A stretch of 64,000 nucleotides of DNA from Pseudemcibacter aquimaris. Lineage in GTDB: Bacteria; Pseudomonadota; Alphaproteobacteria; Sphingomonadales; Emcibacteraceae. Below the pieces are notes generated by a model, which had not been told where the DNA came from, searched no databases, and worked only from the letters and a program-made list of their open reading frames with translations. The stretch spans positions 2,170,001-2,234,000 of the forward strand of contig NZ_CP079800.1 in the NCBI RefSeq assembly GCF_028869115.1. The letters are read 5' to 3'. Shown piece by piece: positions 15,622-37,948 of the stretch (positions are counted from its first letter, which is position 1; every line of letters begins with the position of its first letter). The translations under genes were made by a program, and so were the position numbers.

Positions 15622-16482
15622 ATGACTAAGGTTCTGACGCTTATTTCCAACCCGGAAAACCCCACACTTAACGATGAAATTAAAGATCAAATTGCAGCCG
15701 CTGTTAACGCATCTAGCACAAAATGGCTGAATAAAAATATCGCTTTTGATATCTATTTCGATGGTGAAATTGATACATCAATCATAAAGGGCGATTTTGA
15801 TTATGCCGTTCAGGATGTCGCGACACGCGGTAAAAAACTACTGCTCGCAGATATGGATAGCACCATTATTCAATGTGAATGTATTGATGAACTCGCGGAT
15901 TTCTTAGGGATTAAAGATAAAGTTTCCGGCATAACAGAAGCGGCCATGCGTGGCGAAATTGATTTTAAGGGCGCATTACGTGAACGCGTCGCGCTTCTTA
16001 AAGGATTAAATGTTTCCGATCTTGAAACCGTATTTAACCAAAGGGTTAAATTAACACCCGGTGCAGAAACTCTTGTTAAAACCATGAATGCGAATGGCGC
16101 GAATACGGTTCTTGTGTCCGGTGGTTTTACTTATTTCACTGGACGCGTATCAGAAATCACAGGTTTTAAAGCTAATCGTGCGAATATCCTGCTTCATGAA
16201 GACGGCAAGTTAACAGGCGAAGTTGGTGAACCAATCGTTGATTCAGATACAAAAATCAACACATTACGGGAATTTCAATCAGCGGATAGCCTTGAAACTC
16301 ACGAAATTATCGCTGTTGGCGATGGTGCCAATGATATTCCGATGTTAAATGGCGCAGGACTTGGTGTTGGATATCACCCATTCCCCGCTGCGGGTGAAGC
16401 CGCCGATGTTGCAATTGAACATGCCGACTTAACAGCCCTACTTTACTTACAAGGCTATTCAATAGACGATTTTGTAGATTAG
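15622..16482 (+). CDS. serB: Phosphoserine phosphatase
   Basis: Hydrolyses phosphoserine in the last step of serine synthesis. This 286-residue HAD-family enzyme has nucleophile Asp77 in ADMDSTI, the substrate-specificity segment CECIDELAD, motif II VLVSGGF and motif IV AVGDGANDIPML. The first 70 residues correspond to the degenerate ACT-like N-terminal region of SerB proteins. No strong Shine-Dalgarno is seen before the ATG at 15622. The following gene begins shortly after the stop. Confidence 0.95.
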   Translation: MTKVLTLISNPENPTLNDEIKDQIAAAVNASSTKWLNKNIAFDIYFDGEIDTSIIKGDFDYAVQDVATRGKKLLLADMDSTIIQCECIDELADFLGIKDKVSGITEAAMRGEIDFKGALRERVALLKGLNVSDLETVFNQRVKLTPGAETLVKTMNANGANTVLVSGGFTYFTGRVSEITGFKANRANILLHEDGKLTGEVGEPIVDSDTKINTLREFQSADSLETHEIIAVGDGANDIPMLNGAGLGVGYHPFPAAGEAADVAIEHADLTALLYLQGYSIDDFVD

Positions 16483-16524
16483 TTGCGATATGCTACACTG
16501 CAAAATCAGGGAGAAATAAAAAAA

Positions 16525-17646
16525 ATGAAAAAAACAATCAGTATCTTATCCGCAGCATTTATTGGCGCTCTTTTTGCGAATACTTCAAACGCACAAGCAC
16601 CTGAACTTGATAAGCTAGTGATGCCGGATGGCTTTGCGGCGGAAGTATACGCACGCATCCCTAATGCGCGTCAAATGGCACTTGGCGAAGACGGAACCGT
16701 ATATGTCGGCACCCTTGGTGATGCACGCGGTCGCATTTTTGCAATTACAGATAGTAACGGCGATTATAAAGCAGACGATGTAACTGTCATTGATCAAGGT
16801 TTGAAATCACCTTCTGGATTAACTTATAAAAATGGTGATCTTTATGTTGGCGCTATTAGCACCATTTATAAATATACAGACATCGCAAATTCATTAAGTG
16901 ACCCTAAAGCAGAAATCGTCACTGATAAGTTACCAACTGATACACATCATGGCTGGAAATTTATCGACTTTGGACCTGATAACTTACTTTACATTCCTGT
17001 TGGCGCACCATGTAATATCTGTGATCCCGATGACATTTATGCCGCAATCCATACAATGGATATAAATGATCCAAACAATAGCCTAACAAAAATCGCGGGT
17101 GGAGTTCGCAATACTGTTGGCTTTGACTGGGATCCAAAAACGGGGGAACTTTGGTTCACTGATAACGGCGGTGACGGCCTTGGTGATGAAATGCCTGCCG
17201 ATGAATTAAATAAAATTTCTAAAAATGGTGAACATTTCGGCTACCCGTACATTCATCAGGGTGACTTTAATGACCCAGAATTTGGCAATGGGAAAAATGC
17301 AGCTGATTATACACCTCCCGCGCAAAAATTAGCCCCACATGCTGGTGCGGTTGGCATGGCTTTTTATAAAGGGGATATGTTCCCGGGAAGTTATAAAAAT
17401 AATATCATCGTCGCAGAACACGGTTCATGGAACCGCACTGAAGAAGCGGGCCATACAGGACACCGATTAACCCTTGTCACTGTTGAAAATGGTAAGGCAG
17501 TGAAATATGAACCATTCATCACAGGCTTCCTTCAAAATAACGAAGCATGGGGCCGCCCATCCGATATACTTGAATTAAATGACGGCAGTCTATTGGTCGC
17601 AGATGATCATGCGGGCGTTGTTTACAGAGTAACTTATAGTAAATAA
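16525..17646 (+). CDS. Secreted sorbosone-dehydrogenase-like (PQQ-type sugar dehydrogenase) beta-propeller
   Basis: A 373-residue exported protein. The start is placed at 16525 because a GGGAGAA ribosome-binding site precedes it and a signal peptide ending TSNAQA follows at once. The mature part is a six-bladed propeller like the glucose/sorbosone dehydrogenase family (PF07995). Visible are THHGWKFIDFGPD, a PCNIC pair likely to form a disulfide, GVRNTVGFDWDP, WFTDNGGDGLGDE and EHGSWNR. Enzymes of this family oxidise sugars or aldehydes in the periplasm with PQQ. No pqq synthesis gene is in the window, so cofactor and substrate are inferred only. Confidence 0.8.
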   Translation: MKKTISILSAAFIGALFANTSNAQAPELDKLVMPDGFAAEVYARIPNARQMALGEDGTVYVGTLGDARGRIFAITDSNGDYKADDVTVIDQGLKSPSGLTYKNGDLYVGAISTIYKYTDIANSLSDPKAEIVTDKLPTDTHHGWKFIDFGPDNLLYIPVGAPCNICDPDDIYAAIHTMDINDPNNSLTKIAGGVRNTVGFDWDPKTGELWFTDNGGDGLGDEMPADELNKISKNGEHFGYPYIHQGDFNDPEFGNGKNAADYTPPAQKLAPHAGAVGMAFYKGDMFPGSYKNNIIVAEHGSWNRTEEAGHTGHRLTLVTVENGKAVKYEPFITGFLQNNEAWGRPSDILELNDGSLLVADDHAGVVYRVTYSK

Positions 17647-17722: not shown

Positions 17723-18388
17723 ATGAAAAAGACATTAACAAAAATTGCACTATTTGCTGCACTGCTGTTACCTGTACAAGCAGCATTTTCACAAGGCAGC
17801 CCACATGACGGTTTATATATTGGTGCGGACGCAACCTACGACTTAACACGTTTTGATTCCTATCGCGTGGAAAGCCTTACGGACATGACACCAACAGACA
17901 ACAAATTAATTTATGATGACGAAGGTCTCGCGGCTGGTTTGTTCATCGGTTACAGATTATCCGAACGTCAATTCACACTTGCTGTTGAAGGTCGCTATGG
18001 CTACAGTTTCATCAACAACGAGTTATCAGTTGCTGAAACATATGAAAATACAAACGAATTTGGTATTTCAGTTCTTCCTGGAATTTGGGTGAATGATAAC
18101 ATGATCCTATTCACACGATTTGGCGCTTCGCAGCAAACTGTAACCAGAACATTTGAAGGGGTATTAAACCAAAATTCAGATACAGGCTTTCATTTTGGTG
18201 CGGGCGTAGAAATTATCCTTCCAAATAATCTCGCTATTAGAGGGGAATATAACCGCGCAACGTTCCAACATGAGATGTCACAAGTGTTTGTTGATAACAC
18301 AGTTGACCCTGCTGTCACTACTCAGGTTGATTTCCAAAATAAATTCAGACGTGACCGCTTTCAAGTTTCTATGATTGCTCGCTTCTAA
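17723..18388 (+). CDS. Small outer-membrane beta-barrel protein (OmpA-barrel-like)
   Basis: A 221-residue protein with a signal peptide cut near AAFSQ (about residue 24). Alternating strands such as GLYIGADATYDLT, GLFIGYRLS and LAIRGEYNRATF follow, and it ends in aromatic VSMIARF, as outer-membrane barrels do. The length fits an eight-stranded barrel (PF13505-like). No peptidoglycan-binding domain is present. AAAGGAT precedes the ATG. Function is unknown: adhesion, stability or a porin-like role are all possible. A strong terminator follows. Confidence 0.75.
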   Translation: MKKTLTKIALFAALLLPVQAAFSQGSPHDGLYIGADATYDLTRFDSYRVESLTDMTPTDNKLIYDDEGLAAGLFIGYRLSERQFTLAVEGRYGYSFINNELSVAETYENTNEFGISVLPGIWVNDNMILFTRFGASQQTVTRTFEGVLNQNSDTGFHFGAGVEIILPNNLAIRGEYNRATFQHEMSQVFVDNTVDPAVTTQVDFQNKFRRDRFQVSMIARF

Positions 18389-18410: not shown

Positions 18411-18437
18411 AAAGGCCGGGTCATCCCGGCCTTTTTT
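18411..18437 (+). terminator. Strong intrinsic terminator
   Basis: Perfect 10-bp stem AAAGGCCGGG (18411-18420) / CCCGGCCTTT (18425-18434), TCAT loop, followed by a T-run. Confidence 0.93.
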
Positions 18438-18530: not shown

Positions 18531-19649
18531 ATGACGACTGAATTAACCCGCCGCGATTGGCTTGTTGGGGGCGCGACTGTTGCCGGATCAATGCTCGTAT
18601 CAAAAATGGCATCAGCACAAACTGTTCCAGCACCGATTTTAAAACCAACACGTGAAAACCCGATCCGCGCCGGATTTAATGAAAATGTATATGGTCCGTC
18701 ATTAAGAGCAAAGAAAGTAATGGATAAGGCAGCTGAAACAGCGCATCTTTATAATTTCTTTGCACAGCGCGATTTAAATAAGATTATTTCTGACATGGAA
18801 GGCATTCCCGGTTCACACAGCGCAATAGGAAATGGATCAACCCCATTTCTTGAACGTTCCGCAATGGCATGCGCCATTAAACAAGGAAAAGTACTTGCCC
18901 CTGAACCCACATACCAAAGTGTAGTTGGTACAGCAAAAATGCTTGGTGTTGATGTCGTATCCGTACCTGTTGGTGACGATATGCATATTAACCTGGACGC
19001 CATGCGCGCTGCCATGACAGATGATATCAAACTGATTTATCTGTGTAATCCAAACAACCCGATCCCAAGCATTATTGAAAAGAATGCGCTGAAGGACTTC
19101 TGTCTTGAAATGTCAAAACGCGCCCTCATAGTTGTTGATGAAGCATACTATGAATATGTGAATAACCCCGATTTCCAATCCATGAAAGATCTGGTGGTTG
19201 ACAATAAGAACATCATTATTTGTCGCACAGCATCAAAAATTCACGGGTTTGCCGGTGTACGTATCGGTTTTGCCTTTGCCCATCCTGAAACGATGCGCTT
19301 GATTACTGGTCCGTTTAATATTTCACTGGCAAATGTTGCTGTTGCTGGTGCAGTGGAAAGTTATCAGGATCTTGAGTACCAAAACTTCATTAAACAGAAA
19401 AACCGTGAAAGCATGGATATTCTGGAGAAAATGTTCGAGGATCTAAATCTGGAATATGTAAAATCAAACACTAACTTTGCATTCTTTAATGCCGGAAGAC
19501 CATCATCAGAGGTCGCAACGGAAATGAGAAAGCACGGTATTCTTACCGGACGCCCGTTCCCACCATTTACAAACTGGGTTCGTTTAAGCACCGTCAAACC
19601 TGAAGAAATGCAAATTGTTGCTGATAAGTACCGTGAATTATTCGGTTAA
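18531..19649 (+). CDS. Tat-exported HisC-like PLP aminotransferase, paralog 1 of 4
   Basis: A 372-residue fold-type I aminotransferase with a twin-arginine signal, LTRRDWLVGG, and predicted cleavage at ASA-Q (29/30). PLP residues are present: Asn173 in NPNNPIP, Asp203 and Tyr206 in VVDEAYYEY, and Lys236 in TASKIHGF, followed by Arg244. It departs from its three paralogs in having NENVYG instead of NENPYG or NENPFG, and GNGSTPFL where the others have GS-(T/S/K)-E. It has its own terminator, so it is a separate transcription unit. The family label usually given is histidinol-phosphate aminotransferase, but a periplasmic location makes a histidine-synthesis role unlikely. The substrate is unknown. 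Confidence 0.85.
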   Translation: MTTELTRRDWLVGGATVAGSMLVSKMASAQTVPAPILKPTRENPIRAGFNENVYGPSLRAKKVMDKAAETAHLYNFFAQRDLNKIISDMEGIPGSHSAIGNGSTPFLERSAMACAIKQGKVLAPEPTYQSVVGTAKMLGVDVVSVPVGDDMHINLDAMRAAMTDDIKLIYLCNPNNPIPSIIEKNALKDFCLEMSKRALIVVDEAYYEYVNNPDFQSMKDLVVDNKNIIICRTASKIHGFAGVRIGFAFAHPETMRLITGPFNISLANVAVAGAVESYQDLEYQNFIKQKNRESMDILEKMFEDLNLEYVKSNTNFAFFNAGRPSSEVATEMRKHGILTGRPFPPFTNWVRLSTVKPEEMQIVADKYRELFG

Positions 19650-19671
19650 TCCGTAAAACAACAATAAATTT

Positions 19672-19701
19672 AAAGGCACCTTATTCAAGGTGCCTTTTTT
19701 T
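19672..19701 (+). terminator. Intrinsic terminator after aminotransferase 1
   Basis: Perfect 11-bp stem AAAGGCACCTT (19672-19682) / AAGGTGCCTTT (19687-19697), ATTC loop, T-run to 19701. Confidence 0.93.
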
Positions 19702-19716
19702 ATGGCAAATCATTAC

Positions 19717-19745
19717 TTGGATTTCCACCGATAATATGATTATAT
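19717..19745 (+). promoter_or_regulatory. Possible promoter of the three-gene aminotransferase operon
   Basis: TTGGAT (19717-19722), 17-bp spacer, TTATAT (19740-19745), about 40 bp before the start of aminotransferase 2. The -10 box match is weak. Confidence 0.3.
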
Positions 19746-19785
19746 ACGTTATATTGTTTCACAAAGCATATTTAGGGATACATCG

Positions 19786-20913
19786 ATGACTACTAAAATG
19801 ACACGCCGTGATTGGTTAACCGGCTCTGCAACTGCGGCTGCGGCAACTTTGGCCCTTTCAGGAACAAAAGCAACCGCACAAACATTTATGCAACCAAATG
19901 TCAATCCGACAGCAGAAAATCCAATCCGCGCGCATTTTAATGAAAACCCATATGGGCAATCAAAAATGGCCATTAAAGCGATGAAGGATGCGTTTGATAA
20001 ATCGCACCTTTATACGTTCCGCGAAGTTTTCGATCTTATGGGCCTGATGGCAGAACTTGAAGATATTCCGTTTGAATATGTAACCCTTGGTGCAGGATCA
20101 ACAGAAATACTGGAAAAGGCAGCTGTACTTAATCATGTTAGTGGTGGTGCGGTTATGTCCCCTACCCCAACATATGGCGATATTGCAAGATTTTCCAAAA
20201 CACTCGGCACTAAACTGATCGAAGTACCAGTTGGTGATGACTTGGCAATTAATCTGGAAGCTATGCGAGCTGCCATGACGGATGAAGTGAAGCTCATTTA
20301 TCTTTGTAATCCGAACAATCCAATTCCGACCATCATTGAAAAAAATGCATTAAAAGAATTCATCACTGAAATGTCTAATCGTGGTGTAACTGTCCTGGTT
20401 GATGAAGCATATCATGAATATGTTGATAATCCGGATTATGAAAGTATGGTCAGCATGGTTCGTGAAAATAAAAATGTGATTGTTACAAGAACCGCTTCAA
20501 AAATCCATGCCTTTGCTGGCGTGCGTATTGGTATTTGTTATTCGCACCCTGATTTTGTTCAAAAATCATATGGCCTGTTTTCCAATACATTAAATTACAC
20601 AGCCATCAGAGGCGCCATGGCGAGTTACCGGGACACTGAATATCAAGCATTCCTGAAACAGAAAAACAAAGAATGCCTGGAAATATGTTATGAAATGTTT
20701 GAAGAACTTGGCCTAGAATATGTGAAATCAAACGCCAACTTCACGTTTTTCAATGCTGGACGCCCTGCACTTGAAGTCGCAGAAACCATGAAAAAACATC
20801 ACATTCTTACGGGCCGTGAGTTTAAACTATATAGCAACTGGGTTAGACTAAGCATGACGAAACCGGAAGAAATGAAATATTTTGTCGAAAAGTATAAGCA
20901 AGAATACGCTTAA
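19786..20913 (+). CDS. Tat-exported HisC-like PLP aminotransferase, paralog 2 of 4
   Basis: A 375-residue paralog with the Tat motif MTRRDWLTGS and predicted cleavage at ATA-Q (31/32). The catalytic set is complete: NENPYG, GAGSTEIL, NPNNPIP, LVDEAYHEYV and Lys239 in TASKIHAFAGVRIG. AGGGAT precedes the ATG. It opens a tight plus-strand group: the next paralog starts 24 bp after its stop. PLP would be bound in the cytoplasm before folded export, as is usual for Tat cofactor proteins. The amino-group donor and acceptor cannot be told from sequence. Confidence 0.87.
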   Translation: MTTKMTRRDWLTGSATAAAATLALSGTKATAQTFMQPNVNPTAENPIRAHFNENPYGQSKMAIKAMKDAFDKSHLYTFREVFDLMGLMAELEDIPFEYVTLGAGSTEILEKAAVLNHVSGGAVMSPTPTYGDIARFSKTLGTKLIEVPVGDDLAINLEAMRAAMTDEVKLIYLCNPNNPIPTIIEKNALKEFITEMSNRGVTVLVDEAYHEYVDNPDYESMVSMVRENKNVIVTRTASKIHAFAGVRIGICYSHPDFVQKSYGLFSNTLNYTAIRGAMASYRDTEYQAFLKQKNKECLEICYEMFEELGLEYVKSNANFTFFNAGRPALEVAETMKKHHILTGREFKLYSNWVRLSMTKPEEMKYFVEKYKQEYA

Positions 20914-20936
20914 TATAGTTTAAAGGGGATAAGACA

Positions 20937-22064
20937 ATGACAAATAATTTAACAAGACGTGACTGGCTGGTTGGTACATCCGCCGTCGCAGGCAGCATGA
21001 TGATCGCAAACGCAGCGTCAGCGCAGGACATGGCCAGCATGACAAACATGGGAATGCCGATCAGTAAAGACAACCCGATCCGTATGACCAACAATGAAAA
21101 CCCATATGGTATTAATCCAAAAGCGATGGATGTAATCATTAAGGCATATAAACGCGCCCATATTTATAATTTCCGCGCGAGACGTGAATTGACCAAAGTA
21201 ATTGCAGACATGGAAAACATTCCTGAAGAATGCATTGCTGTTGGTGCGGGATCAAGTGAATATCTTGTTGCCGCGGGCACATTATGCGCTGTATCCGGTG
21301 GTGATATGGTCATTCCGGAAATAACATTCGGATCAATCACCAGAAGCGCATCGGCATTAGGTTCAAAAATCATTCAAGCACCAATGAACGAGGACTTGTC
21401 CATCAGCCTAGATTCCTTGCGCAAGGCAATGACCAAAAACACAAAATGTGTTTATATTTGTAATCCAAATAACCCGGTTCCAAGTATCGTTGAAAAAACG
21501 GCACTTGAACAATTCTGTCTTGAGGTTTCAAAACAAGCAATGGTCGTTGTTGACGAGGCATATTATGAATATGTTCGTGATGACAGCTATTCAACAATGG
21601 CGCACCTAATTAAAGATAACCCAAATATTATCGTTCTTAGAACCGCTTCAAAAATTCATGCATTCGCAAATGTCCGTATTGGATTTGCCTTTGCGCATCC
21701 GGATACAATGAAAAAATTAATGGCGTTTCGTTCTGGCACATCGTCTTACCCAGCCATTATGGGTGCCGTTGCCAGCTATAAAGATCTTGATTACCAGAAA
21801 TTTGTCATCGACAAAAATTATGAATCGCTTGAAATTCTTTATAAAATGTTTGAAGAACTGAATATGCCGTATGTGAAGGCACACGCCAATTTCGTTTTTG
21901 CCAATGCAGGACGTGATGCATCAGAAGTCAGAGAAAAATTACTTGAATCTGGTGTATTAATTGGACGACAATACGCGCATTCACCAAATTGGATCCGTAT
22001 CAGCACCGCCAAGCCGGAAGAAACACAATATATGGTCGACGTTTATAAACGCGACTTTGGATAA
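20937..22064 (+). CDS. Tat-exported HisC-like PLP aminotransferase, paralog 3 of 4
   Basis: A 375-residue paralog with LTRRDWLVGT and predicted cleavage at ASA-Q (29/30). It keeps NENPYG, GAGSSEYL, VDEAYYEYV and Lys239 in TASKIHAFANVRIG, where the others have FAGVRIG. The proline motif is NPNNPVP. The substrate-facing segment PEITFGSITRS differs from the PTY/PTF of its sisters, which suggests another specificity. AAAGGGGAT lies before the ATG. Spacing is 24 bp from paralog 2 and 29 bp to paralog 4, so the three are almost certainly co-transcribed. Confidence 0.87.
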   Translation: MTNNLTRRDWLVGTSAVAGSMMIANAASAQDMASMTNMGMPISKDNPIRMTNNENPYGINPKAMDVIIKAYKRAHIYNFRARRELTKVIADMENIPEECIAVGAGSSEYLVAAGTLCAVSGGDMVIPEITFGSITRSASALGSKIIQAPMNEDLSISLDSLRKAMTKNTKCVYICNPNNPVPSIVEKTALEQFCLEVSKQAMVVVDEAYYEYVRDDSYSTMAHLIKDNPNIIVLRTASKIHAFANVRIGFAFAHPDTMKKLMAFRSGTSSYPAIMGAVASYKDLDYQKFVIDKNYESLEILYKMFEELNMPYVKAHANFVFANAGRDASEVREKLLESGVLIGRQYAHSPNWIRISTAKPEETQYMVDVYKRDFG

Positions 22065-22093
22065 ATAAAATTTAAGACTAAGGGACAAAATAT

Positions 22094-23218
22094 ATGAGAG
22101 AATTAACAAGACGCGATTGGTTAAAAGGTACATCATCACTTGCAGCAGCCAGTCTGGTATACGCAACAACTGCGCAAGCACAAAGCGTTACCGTAAAGGG
22201 ATACACCCCAACCAGAGAAAACCCAATCCGTATGAGCGCGAATGAAAACCCATTTGGTATTTCACGTTCAGCAAAAAATGCAATGTCGGAATCTTGGGGC
22301 GTATCACATTTATATGCTCGTTCAGGACAAAATGAATTAAGACAGCTATATGCGGATATGAACGGCGTTAATCCTAATAATGTTCTACTTGCTAGTGGTT
22401 CAAAAGAAATTCTAAAAGTTATGGCCCTGATCACTAAGATCGAAGGTGGTAGAGTGCTTTCAGCAAATCCGACCTTCCATGATCTTGTACGTTATGCTGA
22501 TTGGGTTGATACAGATATCACCTGGGTTGATGTTCATAACGAAGATATGTCAATTGACCTAGACGCAATGCGTAAGGCATACACAGATGATGTAAAGATC
22601 ATTTATCTATGTAATCCAAATAACCCAATTCCTACCATTATTGAAAAACAAGCATTGCGTGAATTCGTTCTTGAAATGTCACAGAAATGCTACGTCTTCG
22701 TGGATGAAGCATATCATGAATTTGTAACGGATTCTAACTATGGCTCAATGGCAGAGGTTGCAGCAACAACGGACAATGTGATCGTTTCACGTACTGCATC
22801 AAAAATTCACGGCTTTGCCGGCGTACGTATAGGTTTTGCTATTGCGAAACCGGAACTGCTTAGAAAGATCAGCCGCCGTGTAACTGGTACAATCGCCACC
22901 CCATCAGTAATGGGTGCCATTGCGAGTTACAAGGATAAAGAGTTTATGGATTTTGTCGTTCGCAAAAATAAAGAAGGCCTAGAAGAGGTTTACAAAGTAT
23001 TTGATAAACACAATGTTCGCCATTTCAAATCAAACGCAAACTTCACATTCTTTGAAACCGGCCTTGATTTCAAAGAAACAAAAGAGCGTTTCTTAAAGCA
23101 CGGTATTGACGTTGGCCGTCCGTTCCCGCCTTTCACAACATGGGCGCGTGTCAGCATTCAAAAACCGGAAGACATGAAATATTTCGCCGAAGTTTATGAA
23201 AAAGAATTTGTGGGATAA
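22094..23218 (+). CDS. Tat-exported HisC-like PLP aminotransferase, paralog 4 of 4
   Basis: A 374-residue paralog with LTRRDWLKGT, the closest of the four to the Tat consensus because of the lysine after the motif, and predicted cleavage at AQA-Q (29/30). It has NENPFG, ASGSKEIL, NPNNPIP, FVDEAYHEFV and Lys237 in TASKIHGFAGVRIG. AAGGGAC precedes the ATG. It ends the operon, with a strong terminator 25 bp after the stop. All four share NPNNP(I/V)P where classical HisC proteins usually have NPNNPTG, so they form a subfamily of their own. Confidence 0.87.
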   Translation: MRELTRRDWLKGTSSLAAASLVYATTAQAQSVTVKGYTPTRENPIRMSANENPFGISRSAKNAMSESWGVSHLYARSGQNELRQLYADMNGVNPNNVLLASGSKEILKVMALITKIEGGRVLSANPTFHDLVRYADWVDTDITWVDVHNEDMSIDLDAMRKAYTDDVKIIYLCNPNNPIPTIIEKQALREFVLEMSQKCYVFVDEAYHEFVTDSNYGSMAEVAATTDNVIVSRTASKIHGFAGVRIGFAIAKPELLRKISRRVTGTIATPSVMGAIASYKDKEFMDFVVRKNKEGLEEVYKVFDKHNVRHFKSNANFTFFETGLDFKETKERFLKHGIDVGRPFPPFTTWARVSIQKPEDMKYFAEVYEKEFVG

Positions 23219-23242: not shown

Positions 23243-23276
23243 AAAGGGCGCCTATAAAAGGCGCCCTTAATTTTTT
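23243..23276. terminator. Bidirectional intrinsic terminator
   Basis: Stem AAGGGCGCC (23244-23252) / GGCGCCCTT (23260-23268), A-run on the left and a T-run on the right. It serves aminotransferase 4 and convergent trxA. Confidence 0.9.
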
Positions 23277-23293
23277 AAACATAATGAAAACGA

Positions 23294-23611
23294 TTATTTG
23301 TTTTCGTTAACCCATGCTTCGAAATCGCTTTTCGTTGTATTGCCAACTTTCATCGCTGCAACTTCGCCGTTTTTGAACATAAGCATTGTCGGAATACCAC
23401 GCACACCATATTTAGTAGGTGCTTCAGGGTTTTCATCGATGTTCACTTTGGCAAATGAAACTTCAGCAACGTTTTCTGAAACTTCTTCAAAAACAGGGCC
23501 AAACTGTTTACATGGGCCGCACCATTCCGCCCAAAAATCAACGATTACCGGTTTATCAGAATTTAAAACTTCTGCTTCAAAATCTGCGTCTGTTACTGCT
23601 TTAATGCTCAT
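23294..23611 (-). CDS. trxA: Thioredoxin
   Basis: A 105-residue cytoplasmic thiol-disulfide reductant with the WCGPCK active site near residue 30 and the cis-proline in RGIPTML. Length and residues match classical TrxA. AAGGACAAGA precedes the ATG. It lies 74 bp downstream of addA on the same strand, an arrangement (addB-addA-trxA) found in many alphaproteobacteria. It could be read through from addA or have its own promoter. Confidence 0.96.
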   Translation of the reverse strand: MSIKAVTDADFEAEVLNSDKPVIVDFWAEWCGPCKQFGPVFEEVSENVAEVSFAKVNIDENPEAPTKYGVRGIPTMLMFKNGEVAAMKVGNTTKSDFEAWVNENK

Positions 23612-23685: not shown

Positions 23686-26600
23686 TTAAAAATTGATTTT
23701 GTTTAATATTTCTTCTGGTATCTCCATCAATGAACCGATATCGGTCCAAAGAAGAAAACTTCTGATCCTTTTATCCGGATAAATATCAGTAAGAACGGCG
23801 CGATATGCGGCCATCTGTTTTTGATAAATAGATGGAATTTTTTCGGGTGAACTTGGTGGAGGGCGATTGGTTTTATAATCAATCACCAATATTTCGTCAT
23901 CTGTAACCGCAAGCCTGTCGACCTGACCACTTAACGTATAACTCCCAACCTGCCCCACAATGGGCACTTCTGCGCGGCTATTCGGGCCAAAAACTTCTAA
24001 TAATTCATTATCATTCAATATGCCCATCACTTCCGATGAAATTTGCCCTATGTCATCTTGTGATAATTCAAGTGCGCTTTGTGATAAATATTTAAAGGTG
24101 GCCTCATCCCGTTCCCCTATTTCCACATCCGGCAATATTTCCAGCAATTTATGAATCACACGACCACGGTGATATTTACGTTTGTCTTTCGCCATTTCTT
24201 CGGCAAGCTTTAACGGGCTTCTTGATATTTCCTCTTCTTCTGTCTCTGGTCTGGATGGGGAAAGCGGTCTTGATGGTGTCGGCTCGCTCATAGGCGGCAG
24301 TTTCGCCCATATGGGAAGCGCTTCAGTAACAATGCTTTCTTTCTTTTCTTCGGGTGCTGGAACAACAACCTTTGTTCCTTGATTAAAGGTAAGAATATTT
24401 TCGCCATTTCTGTCTAATTTTTCAGAACCACCCATCGAGGACACAGCATCACGGATCAGGTCATACCAATTGCCATCCTGTCGCCCTTTTTTATCTTCCC
24501 ATCCTGTGACATATAATTGATCCTCAGCGCGGGTCATTGCCACATATAAAAGACGTTTATTCTCATCTTCTATGTCGCGTTTTCGTGCTTCATAGGCCAC
24601 CTTCGCCGGGCCAACGCGTGTCTCTTCATTACGAACATATAAAAGTTGTTCTGATAGCCCCTCTTTTGTCCAGAAAAGGTTATCCCTTAAGCCAGCAGAC
24701 TGACATGTATCGGGTAAGAACACAATTGGTGCCTGAAGCCCTTTTGCCCCGTGTACGGTCATGATACGGACCATATCACCGCCCTGCTCCATATCACGTT
24801 TAATTTTGATATCCCCTTTGGTGAACCAATTAATGAACCCTTGCATAGATGAAATATTATTCTGTTCATATTTCATGGCTTGGTTTAAAAATTCATCAAC
24901 CGGGTCATTAATCTGTTCCCCAAGGCGAGCAATTAATTTCTCTCGTCCTCCTTTAGCAGATAAAAGATAATTGAAAAATTCAAACGGCGGATAAAAATCA
25001 GCATAATCCGTCAGTGCGGTTAGAAAATTTGCCGCGTCAGAAAAAACTTCCCTCTCATTACGCCTTTTTAATAACGCCTGCCATAAACTTTCTTGTTTCC
25101 CACGTGGGTTCGCAAGATCAAAAAGATCATCTTCACTAAATCCAATAAACGGGCTTTTTAACACCACCGCGAGCGTCAGATCATCACTTGGTAAAAGCGT
25201 AAAATTCGCCACCGCCATCAAATCCATCACAGGAAGCTGTTCTGTCAATACCATTTGATCCAGACCGGCAACATTTACATCCAATTCTTTCAAGGCACTG
25301 ATCATGTAATGAACAAATTCTTTTCGCTTTTGCACAAGAATGAGCACATCACCCGCGGTGATCGGTCGCCCTTTGGATGGCAGTATTTCTTTGGCATCGA
25401 TCCAGCTTTTGATCTGTTTAGCGATTTTTTCTGCAACAATTCTTTTTGGGTCTTCTGATGGCTTTTGGATAACGGGTGGTGACCAGCCCTCTTCTTCCGC
25501 CTCTTCCGGTGGTTCTACCGTTTCCCAGACCTCAATCAACCCCGGTTCATTTTCACGGTGGGTATCATGTTTTATTTCATTATGACTGAATGATACGGAA
25601 AAGCGTTTTTCTTCGCCGTCAAATACCTGATCCACAGCGCCAAGCACGGTTGACGTTGAACGGAACGACAGGTTCATTGGAACCTCGTCAAATTTTAACC
25701 CCGCATCATTTGCCTGTTTCACAAAATATCTTTTGTTTTCATCGAACTTTTTCGGCTCTGCTTTCTGGAAAGAATAAATGGATTGTTTGATATCCCCCAC
25801 CGCGAAAATGGTACGTGGATTTTCGAATAGGTCCTCTTCTTCACGGTTGCCGGCGCCGGTAAAGAATTCCTGTGTAATCTTGCGAATGATATTCCACTGA
25901 ATTGGGTTTGTATCCTGCGCCTCATCAATCAGAATATGGTCAATACCTTCGTCAAGTTTATAAAGTATCCAGCTTGCGTCAATTTTATGCACGAGCAGGC
26001 TTACCTTGCCTATCAGGTCATCAAAATCCACCACATTATGGCTTTTCTTACGGCTGTTATATTTACCAATCAGCTCAAAACCAATCCGTAATATATTCCT
26101 CGTATTTTCATAGAGTGAATATGCGCGAAGACGTTCGACCGTGAACTTCACCCGCTCGGCTTCCTTAAATAAACAGTCCACACTGTCCGGAAAATCTTCC
26201 ATGACTTTCTTGGTGGTAAGCTTCGCGCGGATTTCATCCTTCGCAGTTAAAAAGGCAAGCTTATAATCATTGAAATTTCGGACGCGATCATCAGGTTTAT
26301 TAACCCAGGACAATATTATTTCACCGCGCCCTTTATCGGTTTTTGTCCCTGCCATCAAATCATCGGCGGCTTGTTTTAATCCGCTTACGTCAATGTCACA
26401 GGCCGCCGCCAAAATGCTCTCTCGTGTGTCACCCTTTTCAAAACCAATCAGTTCTTTTAATGACTTATCGATTTCAGAAAATGACCTTGCGTTTCTTTCA
26501 AATAACTTTTCAAGCCCGCCGCGTTCATTGGACAGGTTCCGCATCAAATCGGAAAATGTTCCTTCCGCCAGCATTCCGGAAATTTGTTCTAATGCTTTGC

Positions 26601-27117
26601 TTAATTCATCGCGTTCACCGTCCGCAATTTCAATCAGTAACTCATCCTGTGATAACCGTAATTGTTCATGAATGGTAATATCATCCAAAAGTTCGAAATT
26701 GGGCGATATATCGGCCTCAATCGGGAAACGGCCCAGTAATGACTGACAAAATGAATGGATCGTTTGAATTTTTAAACCGCCCGGAACATCCAAAACTTTC
26801 GCGAATAATTTCCGTGCAAGCAACATCAGTTCGCTGCTAGGCTTTTCCCCAAGTACATTTTCAAGTTCCGCGAAAAGCGCCGCATCATCCATCGTGATCC
26901 AACCGGAAAGACGTTTATTGACACGGATCGCCATTTCCGCCGCCGCGGTGTTGGTATAAGTCAGGCACAAAATCTTATTAGGATTACTGCCCGACAGCAT
27001 TAACCGAAGTACACGATTTGAAAGAACGAATGTTTTACCCGTCCCCGCCGATGCCCCCACCCATACGGATGATTTCGGGTTTGATGCGCGTAATTGTTCG
27101 CTTGTTTGTTTAACCAT
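23686..27117 (-). CDS. addA: AddA helicase-nuclease subunit
   Basis: The UvrD-like helicase and nuclease subunit of the AddAB double-strand-break repair complex, the counterpart of RecBCD. From the ATG at 27117 it is 1143 residues. The Walker A motif GASAGTGKT is at about 21-29, the Walker B-like DEAQDTNPIQW near 390, helicase motifs include MTVHGAKGLQAP and LLYVAMTRAEDQLYV, and the C-terminal nuclease motif is VIDYKTNRPP. The start shares its A with the last base of the addB stop (TAATG), a translational-coupling arrangement, so it is preferred to the in-frame ATG 15 bases upstream. Confidence 0.95.
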   Translation of the reverse strand: MVKQTSEQLRASNPKSSVWVGASAGTGKTFVLSNRVLRLMLSGSNPNKILCLTYTNTAAAEMAIRVNKRLSGWITMDDAALFAELENVLGEKPSSELMLLARKLFAKVLDVPGGLKIQTIHSFCQSLLGRFPIEADISPNFELLDDITIHEQLRLSQDELLIEIADGERDELSKALEQISGMLAEGTFSDLMRNLSNERGGLEKLFERNARSFSEIDKSLKELIGFEKGDTRESILAAACDIDVSGLKQAADDLMAGTKTDKGRGEIILSWVNKPDDRVRNFNDYKLAFLTAKDEIRAKLTTKKVMEDFPDSVDCLFKEAERVKFTVERLRAYSLYENTRNILRIGFELIGKYNSRKKSHNVVDFDDLIGKVSLLVHKIDASWILYKLDEGIDHILIDEAQDTNPIQWNIIRKITQEFFTGAGNREEEDLFENPRTIFAVGDIKQSIYSFQKAEPKKFDENKRYFVKQANDAGLKFDEVPMNLSFRSTSTVLGAVDQVFDGEEKRFSVSFSHNEIKHDTHRENEPGLIEVWETVEPPEEAEEEGWSPPVIQKPSEDPKRIVAEKIAKQIKSWIDAKEILPSKGRPITAGDVLILVQKRKEFVHYMISALKELDVNVAGLDQMVLTEQLPVMDLMAVANFTLLPSDDLTLAVVLKSPFIGFSEDDLFDLANPRGKQESLWQALLKRRNEREVFSDAANFLTALTDYADFYPPFEFFNYLLSAKGGREKLIARLGEQINDPVDEFLNQAMKYEQNNISSMQGFINWFTKGDIKIKRDMEQGGDMVRIMTVHGAKGLQAPIVFLPDTCQSAGLRDNLFWTKEGLSEQLLYVRNEETRVGPAKVAYEARKRDIEDENKRLLYVAMTRAEDQLYVTGWEDKKGRQDGNWYDLIRDAVSSMGGSEKLDRNGENILTFNQGTKVVVPAPEEKKESIVTEALPIWAKLPPMSEPTPSRPLSPSRPETEEEEISRSPLKLAEEMAKDKRKYHRGRVIHKLLEILPDVEIGERDEATFKYLSQSALELSQDDIGQISSEVMGILNDNELLEVFGPNSRAEVPIVGQVGSYTLSGQVDRLAVTDDEILVIDYKTNRPPPSSPEKIPSIYQKQMAAYRAVLTDIYPDKRIRSFLLWTDIGSLMEIPEEILNKINF

Positions 27118-30062
27118 TAACCATCCCCCCACTCTTTGGCGCGGGCAAGGTGATCAAATTCACCATATCCCCGTTGCATTGGGTTTGGGTTGGAAAGATA
27201 TGGCGTTTCCGGTAAATCAAATGTGGTAACCAGCTTAATTAAACCATCATATGATTTTTGCACCTCTTCCATCACGTCGACTTTTCGTGACGCGTTAAAG
27301 GAACTTATTTTGCCGGGCGTTTCCCCGCCGGATAATTGCCAATAAGAAAGATCGCTTATCTGGTAATCAGGAATTAAATCAAACCCGCCTTGTGCAGCGA
27401 TCACCCCTTCTAATGGCAGTTGCGGTGTATACCCTGCCTTTAATGACCGTAACGTGGGTGGGGAACCCGTTTTATAATCAATGATGCTTAATGTATCGTC
27501 CGCCATTAAATCAATACGGTCGGCTTTGGCAGTTAAGGTAAACATGCCACCGAATGGTTTTAAATCAATTCTACCATTTGTTTCTGTGGCAAGTGTTTTG
27601 ATATTTTCACGGCGCAACCGTTCCGTTTCAATGAACCATTTCGCGATCTGTTTAAACCTTGGCCACCAGAATGTCCGCACCGTTGGTTTATCGATTTTTT
27701 CCTTGAAATATTTATGACCGATATCGATCAATATTTCTTCCGCATCATCCGGCAGATAATCTTTATGACGCGACATAAATTCATCAAGAATATCATGGAT
27801 CATGACCCCCTTATCAATGGCACCCGGGTCCTGATCCAATTCATCCAATTTTTTAAGGTTCAATATTTTACTGGCGTAAATGCTATAAGGGTCCTGCATC
27901 CATTGTTGAATGCGTGTAACCGATAAGTTCCGCGGTCTTTTATCCACGGGCGGTTTTGGCGCGGGTGGATCAATTTTAATTTCCTTATCCGGTGCATCAA
28001 TATCTTTATACCAACCAAGCCATTTTGCGCTTTCCGCCTCATGATGGTGATCACCAATGATTGCATGCAGTCTGTTTAACCATCTGGATTTCACAGTCGG
28101 GGTGCCGTCCTGTTTTTCTGCACGGGTGATTACCACATTACCTGCTGATGCTGTTTGCACAAAATCATGGGCGCTTAAGCCAATTTTCTGTTCCAATCCC
28201 GGAAGACCGAAATCACGACGCATCGGGCGGCTCATCCACGGGTCATCGCCTGCTTCCGGTGGCCATACCCCTTCGTTAAGACCGGACAGGATCATCAAAT
28301 CCGCATGCTGTAACCTTGCCTCAAGTGGCCCCCAAATATTAAGACGGGGATGTTGCCCGTATTTGGAACGTACGGTAACCGATTTCATAAATTGATCAAA
28401 CAGTGCCGCATATTGGTCGGCCTTGAAATACCTCATATAAGGTGCTGCTTGCTGTAAATCCTCGATTAATTTTGCGGCTGCCTCACCATCATCGCCTTTC
28501 CAAATGCGATTTTCACCAGATACCTCATCTGTTGCCGCCAGCTTTTCTGCCATTTCAATATGGGCGATCAACATATCCGCAAATGTCACATTCGGATCGG
28601 CAAGCATGGCATCAAAAGGCTCAATGATATCCTTTAACCCTTGCCACCAATCATATAATGCATCATCCGATCCGCTTTCATGATCCATGACTTTTTCAAT
28701 GCCGTAGAGCCCCGCTGGCGGTCTTGGGCCGCGCAGGTATTTTCTTTCAAAAAGCCTGACATTCGCCCGGAAGTCAGCAATATTATGCCCTCCCGCAGTT
28801 AACGGGTGCTTTAGCATGCTCATAAGTGAAACGGGGCTAAAGTTTTCAGCGATCATTTCGGCCGAAAGTCGTAAATACACACCCACTGCCTTATTAAAAA
28901 GCGGTGTACCGGCACTATCATCAATTTCGACGCCCCAACGGTTCAATTCCCCTGCTACCTGCCTTGCAAGCATCCTGTCCGGGGTTACAAGCGCAGCCGT
29001 TTTTCCCGGTATTTCTAATTGCTCACGCATCATAAGGGCAATGACACCTGCCTCTTCCCGACTGCCCGGTGTCACAATTTGGGTGATATCATCATGTTTT
29101 TGTGCTTCCAGATCGCGCCATAGATGGGTTGTTTCTGCGGGGCGCATAATTTCCCTGAAAAATGTTGTTTTTTGATGATCTATTGATGGATCACTGCCAT
29201 CCCAATTGTTAATTTCAACACGGTCAACGCCGATTTCATCAAGTAAGTGTTTCATGGTGGATTGTGGATGGGTTTCTTCGATTTTTTCCCATGTATCATC
29301 ATCCATGTTCTGATCGACCCCCGGAAGCACCACCATACCATTCGGAAGACGGGAAATCACCGAAAGCAAATGCGCCGTCGATTTGATAGATCCCGTTGAA
29401 CCCGCAGCAATAATCGGAAACTGCGGCGGATTATTAATCCATTTTTCGGCAAGCCCACGTAATAACCGGTTACGCCTGTCCGCCGCATCCATATATCCCG
29501 TTGTAGCCAAGATATCCGGCCACATTTCCGTGACAATTTTTAAAAATTCCAGCGTCTGTTGCCAGTGGATGGCATATTCGTCAGGAACAATATCTTCCAT
29601 ACTGGCGAAATCAATTTCTTCTGTTTGAACCTGATCAAGCAGTGATCCTAACGCCTCCGCCAAAACAGCACAGGTCGCGTTTTCCGGAATATCTTTCTTT
29701 TCTGCCTTATGCCAATCATGAATGATATTCATCAAAATCATCTGGCGGATGGATGCGGGTACAGCAGGTTTTAAATCAAGGTCGTCATATAACGTGCCGC
29801 CAGCCATAATAAGCCCGTCTTCATCCACATCGCCAATTGGCTGCATATTGGGAAGGATTGTTGGCTTGCCATCATTTAATCTTAAAAAAGCGTCGCGTAA
29901 TGACCTGACCGCGCGACGGTTCGGCAATAATATCAATACTTCGCTTAAGGTGATCGGATTATCGCCAAAACGTTCATAAATCCCATTTGCAAGCACATCC
30001 ACAAACGAGAGCGATGCACGAATGTTATATATTTCAGGATTTTTCTGAAGCCGTCTTGGCAT
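27117..30062 (-). CDS. addB: AddB nuclease/inactivated-helicase subunit
   Basis: A 981-residue partner of AddA. N-terminal motifs such as ILLPNRRAVRSLRDAF mark a degenerate helicase fold, EARLQHADLMILSGLNEGVWP is typical of alphaproteobacterial AddB, and the C-terminal RecB-type nuclease has DTLSIIDYKTGSPP with GYTPQLPLEG. I do not see the Fe-S cysteine set known from Bacillus AddB. It starts 7 bp after the stop of the AmgK-MurU fusion gene, so the block divL to addA is one tight string. Confidence 0.93.
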   Translation of the reverse strand: MPRRLQKNPEIYNIRASLSFVDVLANGIYERFGDNPITLSEVLILLPNRRAVRSLRDAFLRLNDGKPTILPNMQPIGDVDEDGLIMAGGTLYDDLDLKPAVPASIRQMILMNIIHDWHKAEKKDIPENATCAVLAEALGSLLDQVQTEEIDFASMEDIVPDEYAIHWQQTLEFLKIVTEMWPDILATTGYMDAADRRNRLLRGLAEKWINNPPQFPIIAAGSTGSIKSTAHLLSVISRLPNGMVVLPGVDQNMDDDTWEKIEETHPQSTMKHLLDEIGVDRVEINNWDGSDPSIDHQKTTFFREIMRPAETTHLWRDLEAQKHDDITQIVTPGSREEAGVIALMMREQLEIPGKTAALVTPDRMLARQVAGELNRWGVEIDDSAGTPLFNKAVGVYLRLSAEMIAENFSPVSLMSMLKHPLTAGGHNIADFRANVRLFERKYLRGPRPPAGLYGIEKVMDHESGSDDALYDWWQGLKDIIEPFDAMLADPNVTFADMLIAHIEMAEKLAATDEVSGENRIWKGDDGEAAAKLIEDLQQAAPYMRYFKADQYAALFDQFMKSVTVRSKYGQHPRLNIWGPLEARLQHADLMILSGLNEGVWPPEAGDDPWMSRPMRRDFGLPGLEQKIGLSAHDFVQTASAGNVVITRAEKQDGTPTVKSRWLNRLHAIIGDHHHEAESAKWLGWYKDIDAPDKEIKIDPPAPKPPVDKRPRNLSVTRIQQWMQDPYSIYASKILNLKKLDELDQDPGAIDKGVMIHDILDEFMSRHKDYLPDDAEEILIDIGHKYFKEKIDKPTVRTFWWPRFKQIAKWFIETERLRRENIKTLATETNGRIDLKPFGGMFTLTAKADRIDLMADDTLSIIDYKTGSPPTLRSLKAGYTPQLPLEGVIAAQGGFDLIPDYQISDLSYWQLSGGETPGKISSFNASRKVDVMEEVQKSYDGLIKLVTTFDLPETPYLSNPNPMQRGYGEFDHLARAKEWGDG

Positions 30063-36355: not shown

Positions 36356-37948
36356 TCACCCTTGTGCCGCGCGTTTATCTAGTTCTTTCATGGTTAACCA
36401 CGCCGCTTCGATGGCACCGCCCATCCAACCTGGATATTCGGAATAAAGTGTATCACTTGAAAACAGAATGCGTTCTTCGCCCTTAAGCACGGTATTCATA
36501 TATTTTCTGCGTTTTCTCGCGGTCCATGACGCCCAACCACCAAGGCTGTATTTCTGTTTATGCCATGCCATGGTGATCGCATTACCGTTATAATGTTTTC
36601 TAAATTTACCCGGATGCAGTTTTTCACCAACGGAAAGAGCAAATTCAACCCTTTCTTCAACGGATAGGTTACTTAATTTCGCGGCCTGCGATCCCCAACT
36701 ATACGCACATAATAGCACACCACCCTTATCACTATGAAGGTCAGATGAAGGATAACTTAAGACACCCTGTCCCGGAATATCGGTTACCGACGTGCCGCCA
36801 AAAATCATTTCGTCCTGTTCCCAGAATCGTCTGTCCATTTGAACACCGAACTTGATGGCAGGAACACCTGATGGTGCTTTTAAGGCCTCCATCAATTCTG
36901 GTCTAAAATTATTTTTAATGCTTGTTAAAACAGGGAACGGTAATGCACATACACAATAATCACCACGGGTTGTAGAAACCGCGCCGCTCTCTGTATTTTT
37001 ATAGGTAATGACAACTTCATCAGAACTTTGATTGATGTCGATAATTTCAGAATTAAATTTGAAAATATTTTTCGGAAGCGCATCAAACATGCCCTTAGCA
37101 ACTTGATCCATGCCACCAACGGCCTGGAACATCACAGCCGGATGGTCTGATGTTTCATATTTACGGCCCATCTTAAACTGTAAAAGTTCTTTTAAATCAT
37201 ATGGATCGGACAATTCACCTAAATCCATTCCCACACCTGGGTAATTGGAATATCCACGTGCGCGGTTGCCACGATATTCCATTTCCTTGCGGCTAAGCAG
37301 GCCCGTATTACGCATATAATCAACCAACATTTCGATGGTTTCCTGATCCACCTTATCATCAAGGCTTCCGTCATGTGCACATTTAGCAAGCAGTTCCATT
37401 ACGCTGCCCTGACGGTCTATTTCCACTTCATGTTGGCGTATCGGTCTGCCTTGAAACGGACCGCCGGAATTTTCAGAATATAAATATGCCTTACTTGATT
37501 TATTAATCATCGGTTCAAGTGCAACACCGAGTGTACGGCAATAATAAAGGGTTGAATAATGCTCAACCGGAATACGCCATGGGCCATAGTTTAAATATTG
37601 ATCATCAGCAAAATTACACACTTGTGTTTCGCCACCTTGATCCTGCACGACTGTGCCTTTACGGCCCGATTGACAGCGACCACCAGCCCTGCTTGTTGCT
37701 TCGATGATTTCGCATTCATATCCTTTTTTCAGCATTTCAATGGCCGTGACCATACCGGAAATACCACCGCCCAGTATGACGATCTTTTTGCCGTTACCCT
37801 CAGTCGACATTTTCGGCGGTTCTGTTAGAAGTGATGCATGAACCTTGTTCAAGCCCTGCATTGCGGTATACATCGCCGCTGATCCACCAAGAATACCGAT
37901 GGTTTTAAGTAGTTCACGTTTACTGATTACTGAATTTTCATTAGACAT
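36356..37948 (-). CDS. Flavin monoamine oxidase family protein with Tat-like leader
   Basis: A 530-residue FAD amine oxidase. The leader SKRELLKTIG resembles a twin-arginine signal but with Lys-Arg instead of Arg-Arg, followed by a hydrophobic stretch. The FAD-binding motif ILGGGISGMVTA is at about 58-69, with Glu83 for the ribose and SRAGGR at 86-91; the C-terminal FAD motif reads GWMGGAIEAA. Such enzymes oxidise amines or L-amino acids to aldehydes or oxo acids with hydrogen peroxide. The substrate is not evident. It sits between ahcY and the HPr gene, which are closer neighbours in related genomes as I recall them, so it may be an insertion into the block. Confidence 0.82.
   Translation of the reverse strand: MSNENSVISKRELLKTIGILGGSAAMYTAMQGLNKVHASLLTEPPKMSTEGNGKKIVILGGGISGMVTAIEMLKKGYECEIIEATSRAGGRCQSGRKGTVVQDQGGETQVCNFADDQYLNYGPWRIPVEHYSTLYYCRTLGVALEPMINKSSKAYLYSENSGGPFQGRPIRQHEVEIDRQGSVMELLAKCAHDGSLDDKVDQETIEMLVDYMRNTGLLSRKEMEYRGNRARGYSNYPGVGMDLGELSDPYDLKELLQFKMGRKYETSDHPAVMFQAVGGMDQVAKGMFDALPKNIFKFNSEIIDINQSSDEVVITYKNTESGAVSTTRGDYCVCALPFPVLTSIKNNFRPELMEALKAPSGVPAIKFGVQMDRRFWEQDEMIFGGTSVTDIPGQGVLSYPSSDLHSDKGGVLLCAYSWGSQAAKLSNLSVEERVEFALSVGEKLHPGKFRKHYNGNAITMAWHKQKYSLGGWASWTARKRRKYMNTVLKGEERILFSSDTLYSEYPGWMGGAIEAAWLTMKELDKRAAQG

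Follow-up and report, generated by a model that had tools for sequence, protein, structure and literature searches.

A genus-wide row of aminotransferases with twin-arginine export signals and a co-occurring family of amino-acid-oxidase-like flavoenzymes in the genus of Pseudemcibacter aquimaris

Amino acid catabolism is usually taught as a cytoplasmic process. The closest described relatives of the system considered here are single exported enzymes. PtaA of Pseudomonas fluorescens is a pyridoxal phosphate (PLP) transaminase that is exported with its cofactor by the twin-arginine translocation (Tat) pathway and acts on pyoverdine, according to the accessible part of its description (PMC6206403), and PA2531 of P. 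aeruginosa, an aminotransferase, has a signal peptide that is tabulated among Tat substrates in the available part of another report (PMC6085387). Exported oxidases are represented by a lao-cccA-ridA cluster in Gluconacetobacter diazotrophicus (PMC5053998) and by a periplasmic LAO1 with RidA in Chlamydomonas (PMC10805672), and the available portions of these two papers mention no row of exported transaminases. This report concerns a row of four genes for Tat-signal aminotransferases in Pseudemcibacter aquimaris (GCF_028869115.1, contig NZ_CP079800.1, positions 2,170,001 to 2,234,000; this whole stretch of 64,000 nucleotides is called the window, and positions are those of the window unless marked otherwise). 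A preliminary description, made from the sequence alone, knew of no pathway with four such exported enzymes. In the accessible parts of the open-licence literature we found single exported PLP enzymes (PtaA, PvdN, and PA2531) and exported oxidases, and no description of an array or of a pairing of the two. The preliminary description was unaware of PtaA as a single precedent. What appears to be new is a genus-wide row of Tat-signal aminotransferases with co-occurring oxidases; a single exported transaminase, PtaA, was already known.

Four intact, full-length aminotransferase open reading frames (ORFs) lie in a row at 18531-23218, all on the plus strand. They are named here after the orthologue groups to which our tree assigns them: A (18531-19649, 372 residues), B (19786-20913, 375 residues), C (20937-22064, 375 residues), and D (22094-23218, 374 residues). 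Each matches the class I/II aminotransferase family PF00155 far above its gathering score of 19.7 bits, with 125.4, 130.1, 123.5, and 137.8 bits, respectively. The four proteins open with TRRDWL, followed by a hydrophobic stretch and an AxA-Q site (ASAQ, ATAQ, ASAQ, and AQAQ), and carry the PLP lysine within TASKIH, just as the preliminary description had it. Their pairwise identities of 42-55% exclude a recent duplication of the four genes. The intergenic gaps are 136, 23, and 29 bp, the last two close to the 24-29 bp first given. A consensus scan found terminator-like hairpins before the array (18411-18434, plus strand), between A and B (19672-19697, plus strand), and after D (23244-23268, scored on both strands), the latter two at the places where a terminator for the first gene and a shared one after the fourth had been proposed. 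Since shuffled sequences give 5.7 ± 2.5 such sites and the region has 9, the main support for the terminators is their location and their stems of 10-11 bp. Promoter-like sites in the array number 10, below the 15.7 ± 4.5 of the shuffles, which lend promoters no support.

The row is conserved across the genus and is therefore not a chance arrangement. Our comparison set comprised 32 genomes of the taxonomic family, 13 from the window's genus and 19 from other genera, with membership of the array family, and of the oxidase family discussed below, set at E ≤ 1e-60. All 13 genus genomes have the array family, at 5-9 matches per genome (contig ends truncate some of them), and none of the 19 others does. 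Sampled evenly, the class gave 5 matching genomes among the other 384, with one match each, and a sample of the phylum gave 15 among the other 397, with one or two; the two samples overlap, and as at most five candidates per genome were scored, counts above five could not appear. Among the best 79 matches were 73 loci from outside the genus, examined with flanks of up to 9 kb. An aminotransferase ORF was not recovered in nine of them, which leaves 64 loci for counting copies outside the genus: 62 have one aminotransferase and two, from Runella, have two about 5.5 kb apart. Among these loci and those of the genus, only the window's genus showed three or more in a row, which suggests that the array is a feature of this one alphaproteobacterial genus.

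The tree was built from 116 proteins by a quick search (LG+G4, SH-aLRT support), with long-branch warnings for the outgroups and for the window genome's distant aminotransferases. It unites all 82 genus copies with a support of 95 and divides them into groups A (including a displaced fifth copy), B, C, D, E, F, and G and a dispersed group H. Mean identity is 0.69-0.82 within groups A-G and 0.46-0.52 between each group and the others. Wherever a contig shows several groups, they follow the order A-B-C-(E)-(D)-F-G; some genes are absent or duplicated, and a group mostly has a single copy. Where it can be seen, the B-C gap is 0-32 bp (12 of 12 genomes); of the 9 genomes that show the gap after A, 7 have a hairpin and a T run there, a count made without a shuffle control. 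The site is the same as well: in all 13 genus genomes the last aminotransferase gene lies 448-471 bp from a homologue of the large protein at 23686-27132 (minus strand), which we take from its sequence, rather than from a profile scan, to be helicase-like (addA-like). Groups E, F, and G are absent from the window genome, which has A-D, and from this we infer an ancestral A-B-C-E-D-F-G array that has lost these three genes here. The orthologue groups and the genus-wide synteny rule out a recent duplication or an oddity private to the window genome, and the neighbourhood comparison that had been recommended has thus yielded what a single sequence could not show. The ratio of nonsynonymous to synonymous substitution rates (dN/dS) of five paralogues between genomes G002 and G012, the only compared pair with unsaturated sites, is 0.062-0.100, so each paralogue is kept in its own right; the comparison of the window with G001 was discarded for saturation (dS 1.6-4.3), and the pair of loci L021 and L113 gave no dS.

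The export signals are conserved along with the row. All four array proteins have the twin-arginine (RR) motif, the hydrophobic stretch, and the AxA site, and a genome search found TatC in the window genome (3.37 Mb, a single contig). RR is kept in 79 of the 82 genus copies, the exceptions being two copies cut at contig ends and one with KR, and a single regular expression found an AxA/G site in 68. An AlphaFold2 model of the group A protein, computed from an alignment of 34 sequences, has a mean predicted local distance difference test score (pLDDT) of 90, falling below 50 over residues 1-29, as expected for a signal peptide. The Tat-type signals read from the window are thus upheld, and the proteins would be exported by this route.

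An alternative is that the N-terminus has been misread and that the four proteins are normal cytosolic enzymes, either HisC or aromatic aminotransferases. Their fold, which they share with HisC as they do the PLP site, speaks for it. The conserved signal argues against this, as do the family scores. The HisC equivalog TIGR01141, with a cut-off of 276.55 bits, is missed by all of them (185.3, 192.3, 218.9, and 214.9 bits for A-D) and is reached by two signal-less proteins of the same genome (321.6 and 285.3 bits). We therefore rejected the identification with HisC and regard this alternative as highly improbable; the first impression that these PLP enzymes form a set distinct from HisC is supported by the comparison with the genome's own passing proteins. 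At the position of R322 of HisC, which we take to be a phosphate-binding residue, the array proteins have a glycine, with an arginine next to it, in a gapped part of the alignment.

Other family models are likewise related and distant. Among NCBIfam models the array proteins match PRK09105 (NF006580) best or second best, over nearly the full length including the signal, but their scores of 213.2, 241.9, 210.8, and 211.3 bits fall short of its cut-off of 444. The PtaA equivalog NF051461, with a cut-off of 500, is missed with 187.2, 216.6, 171.9, and 193.0 bits. The best match of the group A protein in the Protein Data Bank (PDB) is 3ly1 from Erwinia carotovora atroseptica, both by sequence (178 bits) and by fold (TM-score 0.87 over the query length), and this entry is named a putative HisC only. 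In an alignment to E. coli HisC all of the residues that we take to be PLP-binding are present in the four proteins. Across the genus, N176, D203, Y206, K236, R244, and R351 (group A numbering) occur in 82 of 82 copies and S235 in 81, the remaining copy having P. The replacement of the NPNNPTG of HisC by NPNNP(I/V)P, also remarked on at the outset, recurs throughout: its proline is invariant in the 82 copies and in 11 aligned gammaproteobacterial homologues. Directly before this proline, groups F and F' have L, and 4 of the 5 group E copies have T. Together these comparisons support an assignment of A-D as fold-type-I PLP aminotransferases other than HisC.

The second family of interest is represented in the window by a gene at 36356-37948, on the minus strand, for an L-amino-acid-oxidase-like flavoenzyme with an export-type signal of the KR type. 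The protein scores 159.9 bits against PF01593 (cut-off 19.8), and its best PDB match is 2jae, an L-amino acid oxidase (238.4 bits, residues 54-529); its activity is a prediction from this likeness. The family occurs in all 13 genus genomes, with 1-8 matches each (8 in the window genome), and in none of the 19 genomes of other genera, and its genes form rows of 3-6 in several relatives, fragments counted. KR-type signals were found in 40 of the 41 examined copies longer than 400 residues. Of 18 examined oxidase loci, drawn from 11 genomes, 11 (one per genome) have a gene for an M19 dipeptidase with an RR signal within 190 bp of the oxidase gene; two of the dipeptidases were assigned by Pfam and the rest by BLAST, and the oxidase loci of G006 and G007 stood outside this set. 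Three genus genomes (loci L126, L141, and L142) have a row of an oxidase gene, a cytochrome c gene, and two genes for RidA-like proteins with Sec-type signals, as at L126:4708-7973, where the cytochrome and one RidA were scanned with Pfam; the other members of these rows were assigned by BLAST. This arrangement resembles the lao-cccA-ridA cluster as presented in the available part of its report (PMC5053998), and the window's own oxidase gene has no cytochrome c or RidA neighbours of that type. Outside the genus, a flavin amine oxidase gene stands beside a homologous Tat-signal aminotransferase gene in at least 13 of the 73 loci, 12 of them on the same strand, a count without a background rate. 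These loci are mostly from Bacteroidota. The oxidase gene is downstream in L082 and about 0.6-1 kb away on the opposite strand in L051; in L060 and L070, with gaps of 209 and 101 bp, the aminotransferase was placed by homology match and not from the ORF set. A representative oxidase from these loci scores 346.4 bits against 2jae.

We propose that transaminases of differing specificity and oxidases jointly deaminate amino acids in the periplasm, and give this reading a rough probability of 0.5. Tat would carry the folded, PLP-loaded transaminases into the periplasm, where each paralogue would take its own set of extracytoplasmic amino acids and pass the amino group to 2-oxo acids, drawn from the oxidases or from outside. 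The exported flavin oxidases would convert amino acids, by way of 2-imino acids, to 2-oxo acids, and one operon-like row would add exported RidA and cytochrome c. A pool of 2-oxo acids might then shuttle between transaminases and oxidases, and amino acids and small peptides would lose their amino groups outside the cytoplasm. The acceptor problem of a periplasmic transaminase would be solved if the oxidases supply 2-oxo acids. A bolder version, which we offer tentatively, is a periplasmic transdeamination in which the row of transaminases, complementary in specificity, funnels amino groups onto 2-oxo acids and the oxidases re-oxidise the products, with electrons passing to cytochrome c; most amino acids would then be deaminated and partly respired before uptake, and a one-transaminase, one-oxidase operon would be its counterpart in and around Bacteroidota.

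For the earlier suggestion that the enzymes act on extracellular amino acids, the co-occurring oxidases with export-type signals are a point in favor. Nothing turned up that points to amino sugars, the other suggestion made, although no search was aimed at them. That the paralogues act on different substrates is likely, given that their groups are old and separately conserved.

Several observations weigh against this proposal. Group-specific positions are not significantly enriched near the active site, for which we used a presumed list of residues: at a reach of 3 residues they make up 3 of 11, compared to 37 of 264 variable positions (p 0.20), and at reaches of 1 and 2 residues 1 of 11 compared to 15 of 264 and 2 of 11 compared to 23 of 264 (p 0.49 and 0.26). 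KR is a weaker Tat signal than RR, and the oxidases carry KR. Inside the genus no oxidase gene was seen adjoining an array, the window's copy lying 13 kb off on the other strand, and the copy numbers of the two families in the 13 genomes are uncorrelated (rho 0.24, p 0.44; the counts include contig fragments and one genome that is 53% complete). Co-occurrence within the genus may amount to a single event, since both families mark one branch. In the same order but outside the taxonomic family, two of nine genomes searched have a single oxidase match each, of a more distant kind; G025 and G028, of this order, have an oxidase match and no array-family match at E ≤ 1e-60, the best in G025 being 9.9e-42.

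The RidA genes bear on a different alternative, namely, that the array proteins are exported PLP oxidases or lyases and no transaminases, which would release imines or 2-oxo acids without an acceptor and leave RidA and the oxidases to handle the products. Fold-type-I PLP enzymes that use O2 exist, PvdN among them, in the available part of one account (PMC7497351), and PvdN is Tat-exported, according to the accessible part of another (PMC6206403). Genes for RidA with Sec or lipoprotein signals lie 15-571 bp from a Tat-signal aminotransferase gene in 3 of the 73 non-genus loci, and no 2-oxo acid would be needed in the periplasm if the reaction ran without an acceptor. Against this stand the nearest families, which are mostly transaminases, and a PLP core that is that of HisC. 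We consider this alternative improbable, more so than the one taken up next.

PtaA, the nearest functionally known exported transaminase in the accessible literature (PMC6206403), suggests that each transaminase might instead tailor an amino group of some molecule that is secreted or sits in the envelope (a peptide, a siderophore, or a cell-wall or lipid group), much as pyoverdine is modified by PtaA. In the available part of its description PtaA is, as predicted for the array proteins, a Tat-exported PLP transaminase related to HisC, and the fixed gene order with mostly one copy per group would suit a pathway. The differences are considerable, however: the array proteins stand in rows, score 172-217 bits against the PtaA cut-off of 500, and come from a genome in which a search found no condensation domain of a nonribosomal peptide synthetase (a control search was positive in 4 of 14 known genomes). 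Tailoring of a siderophore of that origin was rejected for the window genome on this ground, with ribosomal or other substrates remaining. The conserved flanks also include no recognised gene for a secreted product, although most flank genes were left unscanned, and on the whole we find the tailoring function unlikely.

Those flanks comprise, upstream and on the plus strand, serB (15622-16482; TIGR00338, 215.6 bits against a cut-off of 144.15), a GSDH/DUF7133 domain protein (16483-17646, named from its domain match), and a small outer-membrane beta-barrel protein (17723-18388, PF13505). Homologues of the first two occur at 9 array loci each and of the third at 7, the window included in each count. 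Downstream, before the addA-like gene, is a minus-strand gene (23294-23611) that we presume to be thioredoxin-like from a WCGPCK motif read from the ORF rather than from a profile scan; its homologues are found at 10 other loci.

The fifth array-family copy of the window genome lies 48 kb from the array (genome positions 2241453-2242568) and is 58% identical to A. It starts 2 bp after a gene for an FAH-family protein with a Sec signal; next comes a gene for a DctP-type binding protein, broken by an in-frame stop, the three genes spanning L021:6383-9681 (genome C1:2240383-2243681). Its subgroup is found in one other genome only (G008), where the FAH gene adjoins it on the opposite strand. Group H copies have neighbours of their own: a SorA-like enzyme and a small CxxCH protein in G005 (L121:6535-8078), and a DUF885 protein in G009 (L122:9165-10814).

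Homologous aminotransferases outside the genus occur in several further settings. SoxC-type sulfite dehydrogenase genes lie within 2 kb of the aminotransferase gene in 4 of the 73 loci; in the Woeseiaceae-type loci L037, L039, L040, and L041 such a gene and one for a cystathionine-lyase-like PLP enzyme come after the aminotransferase gene. The L039 copy passes the family cut-off, and a c-type cytochrome-like protein is encoded in three of the four. A link to sulfite, which a cysteine-sulfinate transaminase would release, was set aside as a lead only: the genes in G005 (L121) converge with the aminotransferase gene, and no sulfite dehydrogenase gene is seen beside the other group H copies, L120 (a 4.1-kb contig ending beside the copy) and L122. 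In L043, L044, and L046, from Marinimicrobia and a Pseudomonadales metagenome-assembled genome, RidA genes with Sec or lipoprotein signals are near those of Tat-signal aminotransferases; in the Marinimicrobia loci a DUF885-like protein then follows, together with an M28 peptidase in L043. At L022:7839-10791 (minus strand), genes for a Sec-signal cupin, a Tat-signal aminotransferase 25% identical to array protein A, and a Sec-signal amidohydrolase stand together. A protein that has a Sec signal and matches the Hint domain (31.5 bits compared to a cut-off of 29.7 in the one representative scanned) is encoded at L059:10192-11193 and in 13 more loci, adjoining an oxidase-aminotransferase pair or, in Runella, the aminotransferase alone. 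A Mem_trans-like membrane protein follows the aminotransferase in 10 loci; its score of 13.1 bits compared to a cut-off of 25.7 (one representative) was too weak to use for an auxin-type reading.

The array paralogues offer a natural set for mapping transaminase specificity, and they raise the question of how the amino acceptor for periplasmic PLP chemistry is supplied. If the proposed deamination is correct, peptide use in some bacteria would have to be seen differently, with a conserved set of PLP and flavin enzymes at work in the periplasm, and ammonium and 2-oxo acids would reach their neighbours.

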